Shown here in pieces: positions 9,694 through 33,632 of a DNA stretch of 64,000 nt. Source of the stretch: Actinomycetales bacterium (GTDB taxonomy: Bacteria; Actinomycetota; Actinomycetes; Nanopelagicales; Nanopelagicaceae). Every line of letters begins with the position of its first letter. Within the stretch, counting starts at the first letter, position 1. The translations under genes were made by a program, and so were the position numbers. Location: contig JAGWYO010000002.1 of assembly GCA_018969355.1 (NCBI GenBank), positions 1-64,000 on the forward strand, in the 5' to 3' direction. The notes beneath the pieces were generated by a model. That model made no database searches. It saw only the letters and a program-made list of their open reading frames with translations, and was not told where the DNA came from.

Positions 9694-11115
9694 ATGAATC
9701 GCACATATGCCGTTGAAACGTACGGCTGCCAAATGAACGTGCATGATTCAGAGCGTATTGCCGGATTACTCGACGAAGCAGGTTTCATTCCAGTTGAGCC
9801 TGGCGTGCAGGCAGATATCGTAGTTTTTAATACCTGTGCCGTACGTGAAAATGCAGATAACAAATTGTATGGGAACTTATCTTTTTTAGCTCCAATAAAA
9901 AAAGCAAATCCGCATATGCAGATTGCAGTTGGAGGATGTCTAGCCCAAAAAGATCAAGATATGATTTTAAAGAAAGCTCCTTATGTTGACGTGGTTTTTG
10001 GAACTCATAATGTTGGTTCACTCCCAGTATTGCTCGAGCGTGCCCGCATTGAGGAAGAGGCACAGATAGAAATCCTTGAATCTCTTGAGCATTTCCCATC
10101 CACTCTTCCGGCTCGGCGCTTGTCTGCATTTTCATCGTGGGTTTCTGTCTCTGTTGGGTGCAATAACACCTGCACTTTTTGTATTGTTCCAACATTGCGA
10201 GGTATAGAAAAAGACCGCAGTGCTGATGATATTTTGAGTGAAGTTCGTGCATTAGTTGATCAAGGTGTTATTGAAATAACATTGCTGGGACAAAATGTGA
10301 ACGCCTACGGAGTTGATTTTGGAGATAGGAGTGCATTCGCTCACTTACTTAAGGAATGTGGCAGAGTTGATGGGCTAGAGCGCGTGCGATTTATGTCCCC
10401 GCACCCACGTGATTTCACTGATGATGTAATTGAAGCAATGGCCACTACAGCCAATGTCATGCCACATCTTCATATGCCACTTCAATCAGGTTCTAATTCA
10501 ATTTTGCAGGCGATGCGGCGCTCATATCGAACAGATAGATATTTAGGTATTATTGATCGAGTTCGCAGGGCAATGCCGCATGCAGCAATTACAACTGACA
10601 TCATTGTTGGATTCCCAGGTGAGACTGAGAGTGATTTCCAAGCAACGATGGATCTTTGTACACAGGCACGCTTTGCTGCTGCCTACACCTATCAATACTC
10701 AAAACGTCCTGGAACACCAGCTGCATTAATGCCGGATCAAGTTTTGCCAGAGGTAGTTGGCGAGCGTTATACGCGATTACATCAACATCAACAGGCAATT
10801 TCATTATCTGTTAATCAAGAAGCAGTTGGCAAGGAATTCAAAGTATTGGTTGGCGATTACGAAGGCCGCAGAGATGAAGCACAAGCACGCATGACTGGGC
10901 GGAGTGAAGATTTCAGATTAGTTCATTTCACAAACAGCATCCAAGCCCGTCCAGGTGATGAAGTAGAAGTATCAATTACACAAGCTTCAGCGCACTACTT
11001 AATCGGAACGCCTGGTTTAGTAAGGGCTACACGCGGTGGCGATGCCCATGCGGCAGGAAATGCAGAAAAGAAAAGCTCAGCGACATTACTGGGAATGCCG
11101 ACCTTAAAAGCATGA
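9694..11115 (+). CDS. miaB: tRNA-2-methylthio-N6-dimethylallyladenosine synthase MiaB
   Basis: A radical SAM methylthiotransferase that adds a methylthio group to i6A37 in tRNAs. The N-terminal UPF0004 domain binds one Fe-S cluster through Cys about 12, 48 and 82; the radical SAM cluster is held by CNNTCTFC (about 156, 160, 163). A C-terminal TRAM domain follows (about 375-440), with a short non-conserved tail. The miaA start overlaps its stop (ATGA), so MiaA, which makes the substrate i6A, is translationally coupled. Confidence 0.97.
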
Positions 11116-12017
11116 AAGTAATAGTCATCTGCGGGGCAACGGCAACTGGCAAGAGTGATTTAGCCATCTCACTGGCTCAGCACTTAGGCGCTGAAATCAT
11201 CAATGCTGATTCGATGCAGATCTATAAAGGCATGGATATCGGCACGGCGAAACTTCCAGTAGGTGAGCGGGCAGGCGTTGCTCACCACATGCTTGATGTT
11301 TTGGAAGTAACACAAGATTCAACGGTGGCGTGGTATCAAGAGCACGCTCGAAATGCGGTGAGTGAAATTCATAGCCGTGGCAAAGATGTCATCATTGTTG
11401 GGGGAACAGGTCTGTATATCAAAGCGATATTGGACGATTTGAATTTTCCAGATACTGATCCTGTGGTGAGAGCATCGTTGGAACTGGAATTGGCAACAAT
11501 TGGAGTAAATGGGCTATTCGAGCGTTTAGAAAAACTCGATCCCGCGGCAGCAATAGCTATTGACCGCGCTAACTCTCGCCGAGTTATTCGTGCGCTAGAA
11601 GTAATTGCAATTACAGGTAAACCATTCACGGCAAATTTGCCACGTGAGGCAAGTACTCGCTATCCCAATGCCGTTCAATTTGGCTTAGTTATGGACCGTG
11701 ACCATTTAACTGAGCGAATAAGTGCGCGCGTTGATCGAATGTGGGAGCTAGGTTTTGTGGAGGAGGTTGAGCAGTTAATTAAGGATGGAATTACTTCAGG
11801 GCGCACAGCACAGTTAGCACTGGGCTACTCACAGATCATCGCATTTAAAAATGGGCTACTAAGTGAGGAAGAAGCAAAAGAGGACACAAAGCGGGCCACC
11901 CGCCAATATGCCCGCCGCCAAGAGGTTTGGTTTTCGCGTGATGAGCGAATCAAATGGATTTCACAAGCCCAACCGCGTCTAGAGACTGTAATGCAACTTT
12001 TAGAGAAGATAAACTGA
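11112..12017 (+). CDS. miaA: tRNA dimethylallyltransferase MiaA
   Basis: MiaA transfers the dimethylallyl group from DMAPP to A37 of tRNAs. The P-loop GATATGKS is at about residues 8-15, followed by [17 protein letters not shown] (DSxQxYxxxxIGTAK signature) and HHMLD, then IVGGTGLY. The length of 301 residues is normal. It overlaps miaB by four bases and dapF starts five bases after its stop. DMAPP comes from the methylerythritol phosphate pathway, whose first enzyme Dxs is encoded at 22039. Confidence 0.97.
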
Positions 12018-31495: not shown

Positions 31496-32500
31496 ATGTG
31501 CAGGCGCATACTTCCCCATGCCATCGCGGCTTTGGCCCTGGTAGTGGGCTTGAGTGCACCTGCTCATGCCGCCCCATCGTTGGCTGAGGTTCAGGCAAAG
31601 GTGCAACTGCTGGAAGAAGAGGCGACAACGGCAGCTGAAGGTGCTCAAGAAGCAAAAGTTAAGTTGATTGCCCTGACTCGAACACTCAATGGCATTAAAG
31701 CAAAAGCAGCCGTGCAAGGAGAAACACTTTCTGCTCTGCAAAAATCACTGGGCACCATTGCAATTGAGCAATACAAAGCCGGTGGACTAGGTCAATCATT
31801 GGAGCTACTTTTTTCCTCAGATCCCACTTTGTATTTATCCTCTGCTGGCGCACTCGATGCAATTAGTCGGCGCAAATCGGCACAACTTCGAAAGTATGAG
31901 GCAGCCCAGCAACGCTTAAGCGCAACAACAATGACAGTTAATGACAAATTGGCACTAGTGGTCGCTGCTGAAAAGAAATTCAAAGCTCAATCAGCTATGG
32001 CCCAAGAAAAGCTCGCTCAAGCCGAGGCCTTACTCTCCAAATTAACAAAAGCCGAGCGAGAGCGCTTAGCAAAATTGGCGGCGGAACAAGAAGATGCCGA
32101 TCAAGCCGACTCACAAGCTGCCGCCCGCGCGCTTTCTGGAATATCTGGACGTGCCGGTATTGCGATTAAATATGCACTTAAGCAAATCGGTGATCGTTAT
32201 GTATTTGGTGCTGCAGGTTTAGTAACCTGGGATTGTTCTGGTTTAACTATGCGTGCCTACCAAGCAGCAGGAGTTTCACTACCGCATTCATCTGCCGCCC
32301 AGTCAAGAATGGGTAAACAAGTATCGATTCATGCACTTAAGCCGGGAGATTTACTGTTTTTTGGACGTCCAGTCTCACACGTTGGTATCTATATCGGTGG
32401 GGGAAAGATGGTTCATGCACCGAGATCTGGTTCGAGAGTGAAAATCACGACCAGTGGATCTTTAGGAAGAAAACCATTAGTGGGAGCTCGCCGTTTCTAA
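31496..32500 (+). CDS. Secreted NlpC/P60 peptidoglycan endopeptidase with coiled-coil N-terminus
   Basis: A cell-wall hydrolase of 334 residues. Residues 1-26 are a signal peptide ending near AHA; about 27-215 is an Ala/Lys/Glu-rich coiled coil; and the NlpC/P60 domain fills about 216-334. Catalytic residues are Cys 247 (WDCSGL), His 295 (SHVGIY) and probably His 307 (MVHAP). It resembles RipA/Rv2190c-type proteins, and Rv2190c also sits by PimB' in mycobacteria. It is directly followed by pimB', whose likely ribosome-binding site lies inside the last codons of this gene. Confidence 0.93.
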   Translation: MCRRILPHAIAALALVVGLSAPAHAAPSLAEVQAKVQLLEEEATTAAEGAQEAKVKLIALTRTLNGIKAKAAVQGETLSALQKSLGTIAIEQYKAGGLGQSLELLFSSDPTLYLSSAGALDAISRRKSAQLRKYEAAQQRLSATTMTVNDKLALVVAAEKKFKAQSAMAQEKLAQAEALLSKLTKAERERLAKLAAEQEDADQADSQAAARALSGISGRAGIAIKYALKQIGDRYVFGAAGLVTWDCSGLTMRAYQAAGVSLPHSSAAQSRMGKQVSIHALKPGDLLFFGRPVSHVGIYIGGGKMVHAPRSGSRVKITTSGSLGRKPLVGARRF

Positions 32501-33632
32501 CACAACTCTCTTTGTAACCAATGATTTTGGTCCACGGACTGGAGGAATCGAGACCTTCATCATTGGTTTAATTGAACGGTTACCAAAATCGAGCGTTGTT
32601 GTTTACACGTCGGCTCAGGAAAATTCTAAGACATACGATAAATGTTGGCTCAGCGATTTCGGTGTTGAGGTTATAAGAGACAGATCAAAAATACTGCTCC
32701 CCACAAGGCGAGTTAACCGGGCAGTAGCCACAATAGTCAGAGAAAGAGGGATCACGTCAGTTGCCTTTGGTGCAGCAGCGCCGCTGGCGTGGATGTCACC
32801 GACCTTACGTAAGGCTGGAGCACGACGCATAGTTGCCCTTACCCATGGACATGAAGTGTGGTGGGCAAAGGTTTTTCCATTCAATGTAATTTTGCGACGC
32901 ATTGGATCAACTACTGATTGTCTGACTTATCTGGGTGAATACACGTACACAGCCATCTCACAAGCCCTGACAACAAAGAGCGCAGCTACTATGCAAAAAA
33001 TTGCACCCGGAATAGATATTGATCATTTCACTTCAGTTGATGCTTCATCTCTACGCCAATCGTTGGGATTAAATGAGAAGAAAGTCATTGTGAGCGTGGG
33101 ACGCCTTGTGCATCGCAAAGGCCAGGATTTTCTAATCAAATCCATGCCACAGATACTCACTGCCGTACCAGATGCTCATCTTCTACTTATAGGCCAAGGG
33201 CCTTATAGAGCGCACTTAGAAAAACTTGTGACTCAATATTCATTACAAGCAAACGTAACTTTTATTGGCCGAATTCAATACAATGATTTACCCGGCTACA
33301 TCTGCGTGGGCGATATCTTTGCGATGCCTTCTAGATCACGCTTTGCAGGTTTAGAAGTAGAGGGATTGGGAATTGTCTATTTAGAGGCCAGTGCATGCGG
33401 ACTCCCTGTAATTGCTGGGGCATCTGGTGGAGCACCTGATGCAGTCATAGAAGGCGTAACAGGATTTATTGTTGATGGCACTAGCACGCAACAGATTGCA
33501 CAAAGAGCAATTCAACTTTTAGGTGATGAAAAACTGCGCCGGGATATGGGTAGCGCAGGCCGAGTATGGATTGAAAAGGAGTGGCGCTGGCAAATTTGGG
33601 CTAGCAAATTCTCACAATTACTTGCCAGATAA
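32493..33632 (+). CDS. pimB: GT4 mannosyltransferase PimB'-like (phosphatidylinositol mannoside synthesis)
   Basis: A GT-B glycosyltransferase that by similarity adds the second mannose to PIM1. The C-terminal half has VSVGRLVHRKGQDFLIK and the donor-binding EVEGLGIVYLEASACGLP, closely like corynebacterial PimB'. The N-terminal TLFVTNDFGPRTGGIE loop is in frame well before the first ATG (32793), which would remove about 100 residues. No ATG, GTG or TTG occurs in frame upstream of that loop. A GTT at 32493 lies six bases after GGGAG (32482-32486) and would give the family-like start (M)SNTTLFVTND. The start is therefore either a non-standard GUU or a GTG changed to GTT by mutation or sequence error. 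NlpC/P60 upstream and FadD15 nearby fit the actinobacterial PimB' locus. Confidence 0.82.
   Translation, partial: VSNTTLFVTNDFGPRTGGIETFIIGLIERLPKSSVVVYTSAQENSKTYDKCWLSDFGVEVIRDRSKILLPTRRVNRAVATIVRERGITSVAFGAAAPLAWMSPTLRKAGARRIVALTHGHEVWWAKVFPFNVILRRIGSTTDCLTYLGEYTYTAISQALTTKSAATMQKIAPGIDIDHFTSVDASSLRQSLGLNEKKVIVSVGRLVHRKGQDFLIKSMPQILTAVPDAHLLLIGQGPYRAHLEKLVTQYSLQANVTFIGRIQYNDLPGYICVGDIFAMPSRSRFAGLEVEGLGIVYLEASACGLPVIAGASGGAPDAVIEGVTGFIVDGTSTQQIAQRAIQLLGDEKLRRDMGSAGRVWIEKEWRWQIWASKFSQLLAR

Follow-up and report, generated by a model that had tools for sequence, protein, structure and literature searches.

The NlpC/P60-pimB' junction

The window, meaning the whole 64,000-nucleotide stretch of actinobacterial DNA analysed here, contains a gene for an NlpC/P60 peptidase followed by pimB' (Table 1). 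The N-terminus of the peptidase appears signal-peptide-like by eye, and the best NCBIfam match of the gene is the RipC exception model, below cut-off. The gene ends with CGT (32492-32494), TTC (32495-32497) and TAA (32498-32500), and this end overlaps the putative start of pimB'. The GTT found there is composed of bases 2-3 of the Arg codon CGT and base 1 of the Phe codon TTC, its middle T being the wobble base of the Arg codon.

Table 1. Positions of the genes and signals at the junction, with their basis
Feature	Position	Strand	Basis and remarks
NlpC/P60 peptidase	31496..32500	+	ORF; Pfam PF00877, 6.6e-23; directly upstream of pimB'
TAG stop in pimB' frame	32478..32480	+	Bars starts farther upstream; frame reading
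Shine-Dalgarno GGGAG	32482..32486	+	6 nt 5' of GTT; within NlpC Val-Gly-Ala codons; peak of duplex profile over relatives
GTT (GUU), putative start codon of pimB'	32493..32495	+	55/140 junctions; no synonymous change across 48 NlpC genes
pimB', phosphatidylinositol-monomannoside mannosyltransferase-like GT4	32493..33632	+	379 residues if begun at GTT; phmmer, Pfam, dN/dS

The pimB' product was found by phmmer to be homologous over its full length to the characterised PimB' of Corynebacterium glutamicum (3oka, E 8.2e-97; 3okc, E 9.3e-97), with query residues 4-381 aligned to chain residues 2-376; the next different molecule follows at E 4.5e-22. Residue 2 of 3oka aligns with query residue 4, one residue ahead of the GTT codon. 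A GT4 glycosyltransferase domain was matched above its cut-off (PF00534, 2.6e-44), and no NCBIfam family reached its cut-off among the best 25 of 44 families listed. By homology, the product is thus predicted to be PimB', the GDP-mannose-dependent phosphatidylinositol-monomannoside alpha-1,6-mannosyltransferase, with a predicted activity on PIM1.

The first canonical start codon of the frame is ATG 32793. The segment before it shows a dN/dS of 0.06-0.14 in 11 of 12 relatives, the twelfth (L005) being saturated, and the rest of the gene 0.06-0.10 in the nine of 12 that could be computed; these values are rough, with synonymous sites near saturation in all comparisons (pS 0.53-0.76). Judged from this substitution pattern and from the alignment with 3oka, the portion 5' of ATG 32793 is real protein, and both portions evolve as protein. 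The original prediction had held that a start at 32793 would delete about 100 residues including the beginning of the donor lobe. The size of the loss stands and the label does not, the N-terminal domain of a GT-B fold being the acceptor lobe.

Direct reading of the pimB' frame revealed no ATG, GTG or TTG in the 104 codons from the in-frame TAG to ATG 32793. After the TAG, the frame runs TGG GAG CTC GCC GTT TCT AAC ACA ACT CTC TTT GTA ACC AAT GAT TTT GGT, the GTT lying six nucleotides past GGGAG. Both the missing canonical start and this spacing had been claimed beforehand, and both are confirmed. Among 63 gene-like stop-to-stop frames of the window, the median distance from the stop to the first canonical start is 4 codons, and a gap of more than 35 codons was observed in two, pimB' and the frame at 10962-12014 (50 codons). 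The latter is an ordinary miaA, whose Pfam match begins at residue 51, the first ATG. The start gap of pimB' is out of the ordinary for the sequence of the window.

Junctions in relatives

In the genus, all 135 genomes were matched by a protein search, some via paralogues or fragments alone; the search also returned 54 named loci, mostly from freshwater actinobacteria. After 94 further regions had been fetched, 179 loci were reduced to 140 distinct junctions by counting once all loci that agree fully between -60 and +300 of the N-terminal TND codon and by dropping L079, which has no N-terminal motif. A family-wide protein search matched 295 of 296 genomes and 16 further genera; the junction survey covers the genus, with other genera represented through the 54 named loci. 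No relative was found among the viral contigs searched. Three records of metagenome-assembled genomes (MAGs) titled Bifidobacterium breve or Streptomyces griseus (L048, L057 and L073) carry a pimB' that falls among freshwater acI relatives, and their titles look wrong.

The NlpC stop precedes TND by exactly 19 nt in 49 junctions (set A), with the frame relation seen in the window; 17 junctions have the same frame at another distance (set B), 56 have other frames (set C), and in 18 no NlpC gene was found just upstream. GTT followed by no canonical start up to the beginning of the homology was found in 55 of the 140 distinct junctions, comprising set A in full (49), three junctions of set B (L048, L057 and L099) and three in which the NlpC gene is decayed (L027, L031 and L095). 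A few of these 55 have GTG, ATG or TTG within four codons of TND. The closed chromosome CP015605 (L032, identical to L005) has GTT at the homologous codon and no usable canonical start. Fourteen of the 55 contain no ATG, GTG or TTG between the in-frame stop and the fifth codon before TND (the window, L005, L011, L014, L015, L017, L018, L019, L053, L084, L089, L091, L094 and L099), so that none stands at the homologous start; two of these have GTG one codon before TND.

In eight junctions (L020, L087, L089, L091, L093, L099, L102 and L175), the codon right after GTT is ATT, a possible alternative start there. In the three lineages with a decayed NlpC gene, a C-terminal remnant persists, and GGAG and GTT remain before pimB'; L031 and L095 also have an ATG 15 codons before TND.

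Selection on the GTT codon

The overlap places the middle base of GTT at a synonymous position of the upstream gene. The penultimate Arg of NlpC is encoded by CGT in 52 of 52 GTT junctions with an intact NlpC gene versus 12 of 70 others, a difference whose Fisher value of 3e-23 overstates the case since the relatives share ancestry and are not independent. These counts omit the 18 of 140 junctions without NlpC just upstream, including L027, L031 and L095, and place among the "others" L051 and L066, which have GTT but ATG or GTG just after it. At the other Arg positions of these 52 NlpC genes, CGT accounts for 25% of the codons. The closest control is provided by the 14 same-frame junctions in which a different canonical start is present: the codon there is GTT in two (L051 and L066), and GAT, GGT, GAA, GCA, GCC or GTC in 12.

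Substitutions were counted by parsimony on a FastTree phylogeny of PimB' with 138 tips, L178 and L179 (at most 200 residues) being left out. Among 86 four-fold degenerate NlpC columns in 48 set A genes, the Arg wobble is the sole column with no change. The second most constrained is the Gly of GGAG, with 7 changes in 47 genes; the median over the columns is 0.39 per gene. This Arg column changed 20 times in 63 genes of the remaining junction types. The GTT state itself changes five times on the tree. Overall, the comparison shows a codon conserved by selection, GTT and its SD having been kept in frame at the place where PimB' begins.

Two lineages (L026 and L097) are placed among the GTT lineages and have an NlpC gene ending in TTTTGA, in which a TTG start and the stop overlap; their Arg codon is CGC. 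This CGC in TTG-gaining lineages may reflect a release of the constraint and is suggestive only, the nesting being uncertain (node support above the lineage, from the outside in, 0.92, 0.82, 0.50 and 0.0).

All 49 set A junctions encode Phe, Tyr or Leu as the last NlpC residue. Where it is Phe, the codon is TTC in 29 of 29 and never TTT, a bias that a GUU reading does not explain.

Ribosome binding

Over the relatives, the energy of the duplex with the anti-Shine-Dalgarno (anti-SD) core was observed to be best for 8-nt stretches starting 14 to 10 nt before GTT. With "strong" defined as -4 kcal/mol or better, a strong SD at normal spacing precedes 51 of 55 GTT sites (median -5.6 kcal/mol). ATG-started relatives, defined as having exactly one ATG 7-14 codons before TND, hardly have any (1/68), unlike the GTT-begun genes. 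Of five genomes searched, the four closed ones contain a 16S-end pattern that includes the anti-SD; neither of the 16S-end patterns was found in the MAG to which the window belongs. Such a strong SD in front of a weak start codon has the appearance of compensation, by analogy with the extended SD of sigR (PMC5472188).

Alternative explanations

Taken together, these comparisons make it very probable that pimB' is translated from GUU 32493 in an SD-driven manner, at a start that overlaps the NlpC stop and is kept by selection. Five other explanations were weighed against this reading.

Initiation could instead occur at a TTG or GTG 11-15 codons before TND where one is present, with the window species being an exception or starting differently and GTT being NlpC coding sequence and nothing else. 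Such codons are common among the 52 GTT junctions with an intact NlpC gene: TTG lies 12-15 codons before TND in 24 and GTG 11 codons before it in 12, together 36 of 52, and they could serve too. The TTG at 12 codons is preceded by a moderate SD (median -3.3 kcal/mol). Against this, the SD is strong in one of 23 TTG-12 and one of 12 GTG-11 cases, and the GTG-11 codon overlaps the SD of GTT itself. In the 14 of 55 junctions listed above, the TTG slot of other species reads TAG (8) or TGG (6), with nothing else serving. The wobble base that makes the TTG is free to vary (14 changes in 38 genes), whereas GTT is invariant even beside TTG or GTG, CGT being kept in 24 of 24 junctions with the former and 12 of 12 with the latter. 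Exclusive use of an upstream codon is therefore considered improbable.

It is less probable again that the CGT wobble is kept for some other RNA reason, such as termination context, structure or a coupling element, with initiation elsewhere. A conserved base by itself is no proof of use as a start. The same Arg, however, is encoded by CGG, CGC, CGA or AGA in most other junctions (58/70), folding of the junction in the window sequence revealed nothing unusual (z 0.63), and the frame, the SD spacing and the homology all indicate a start.

A prfB-like +1 ribosomal frameshift yielding an NlpC-PimB' fusion would fit the +1 relation of the pimB' frame to NlpC and the nearby stop codon, but has a very small chance of being correct. 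The codons around the stop vary (TTC, TAT, TAC or TTA; TAA, TGA or TAG), no slippery heptamer is kept, and no conserved slippery codon with stop context of the prfB type was found across the relatives' junctions. With a signal-peptide-like N-terminus on NlpC, a fusion would presumably export a cytoplasmic mannosyltransferase. Other lineages begin pimB' separately, at TAATG or at a spaced ATG, and GTT persists in the three species with decayed NlpC.

The window comes from a MAG of 83 contigs, and a base-call error, an assembly error or a very recent GTG-to-GTT mutation had been proposed. Sequencing error and recent mutation are excluded for practical purposes, since 55 of 140 junctions, the closed CP015605 among them, share the GTT at the corresponding codon, and GTG occupies this codon in none of the 66 junctions with the frame relation of the window. 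Inspection of relatives for GTG at this codon, suggested as a way of exposing such an error, thus had the opposite outcome.

Equally negligible is a protein starting at ATG 32793, the first canonical start, or a dead gene, given that this would remove 100 residues that align with C. glutamicum PimB' and evolve at a dN/dS of 0.06-0.14 in 11 of 12 relatives.

Of the explanations first offered for the missing start codon, a true GUU start is the one that the comparative evidence from relatives strongly supports.

Proposed mechanism of initiation

On the reading of GUU 32493 as the start, the GGGAG inside the end of the NlpC gene would place a 30S subunit or a terminating ribosome on this codon. 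Initiator fMet-tRNA would pair with GUU through the middle base and a G.U wobble at position 1, and fMet would presumably be the residue used. With this start and the NlpC stop overlapping (GTTTCTAA), re-initiation after NlpC termination at the TAA 5 nt downstream probably helps; coupling of pimB' to the NlpC stop fits the arrangement.

The overlap would also limit the choice of codon. With CGN followed by TTC, TAY or TTA, the start codon must read GNT, and among codons of this form GTT alone comes close to a start codon. GUU may thus persist in place of GTG because a GTG would alter the last NlpC residue (to Val, Ala, Asp, Glu or Gly). Why so many lineages have not acquired a better start farther downstream is not accounted for by the overlap; either a small need for PimB' or genuine regulation may be the reason.

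Relation to known non-canonical starts

Initiation from all 64 codons was reportedly the subject of a study by Hecht et al. (2017). In reporter libraries of Escherichia coli, GTT drove initiation at 0.1-1.5% of the ATG level with one reporter and fell within 19-44% with a second one (PMC6925171). These engineered GTT starts initiate measurably in a bacterium, with a strength that depends widely on the reporter. A literature search for a natural bacterial GUU start, with most subscription papers lying outside its reach, turned up only the predicted two-species sigR case described below. The accessible part of PMC11497404 contains no mention of GUU, and that of PMC2794547 concerns two Val codons gtt-gtc of a Pseudomonas strain that would have to become gtg, and mentions no GTT start.

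The closest natural system is sigR of Streptomyces, whose GTC start is repressed by IF3; the start is GTC in 32 of 34 Streptomyces species and GTT in two, the GTT being only predicted (PMC5472188). Both sigR and pimB' belong to actinobacteria and combine a GUN start, putative in pimB', with a conserved SD that is strong (AGGAGGTG in sigR; PMC5472188). The two differ in gene and pathway, and whereas the GTC of sigR is the rule and is proven by experiment, the putative GTT start of pimB' occurs in 55 of the 140 junctions, overlaps the upstream gene and is supported by comparative evidence.

The gene for IF3 itself, infC, starts with ATT in E. coli and ATC in Streptomyces and is autoregulated by IF3 (PMC5472188). 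pimB' resembles infC in its non-canonical start, but whereas infC is under its own control, no reason is known why pimB' should respond to IF3. The infC genes of the genus were compared in the best 30 loci from 109 matching genomes and five earlier loci, corresponding to 29 distinct loci. At the homologous start, ATC was found in 24 of 29 and GTC in four (L185, L193, L199 and L214), one locus being cut by a contig end (L190). In the 12 codons that precede the RIND motif, ATG, GTG and TTG are absent throughout, including in the infC of the window genome (L180); canonical codons lie farther upstream in L216 (13 codons), L186 (16 and 23) and L185 (25 and 27). The GTC of the four loci is a further GUN start. 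Given this non-canonical start of infC, IF3 is likely to discriminate between start codons in the genus, and the GUU start of pimB' would then be expected to be IF3-limited, as is the GTC of sigR, with a low output of pimB'.

The nearest counterparts in gene content are the NlpC/P60-pimB' pairs of sister species with TAATG or TAGTG junctions, which have the same genes, order and overlap coupling. They differ in using ATG, GTG or TTG downstream, in another frame or at another spacing, and those started with ATG have a weak SD (1/68 strong).

What a GUU start may mean

A regulatory role for the codon is doubtful but can be outlined. GUU might be a kept valve that holds pimB' and phosphatidylinositol mannoside (PIM) synthesis low and ties them to IF3 in acI actinobacteria, tuned by the SD and by the overlap with the NlpC stop; the supply of hydrolase and of PIM would then co-vary with the state of the initiation machinery.

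On the comparative evidence, pimB' would add a new gene to the known non-canonical starts, one with a scarcely recorded GUN codon, a record of selection on the scale of a genus and an overlap that forces the codon. Natural bacterial GUU starts are barely documented, and gene finders that admit ATG, GTG and TTG alone would mis-annotate such a gene. In this family, the synonymous site of the overlapping gene acts as a built-in record of start-codon selection over dozens of species, which makes the comparative evidence unusually strong, and the same overlap-based logic could find other hidden starts.
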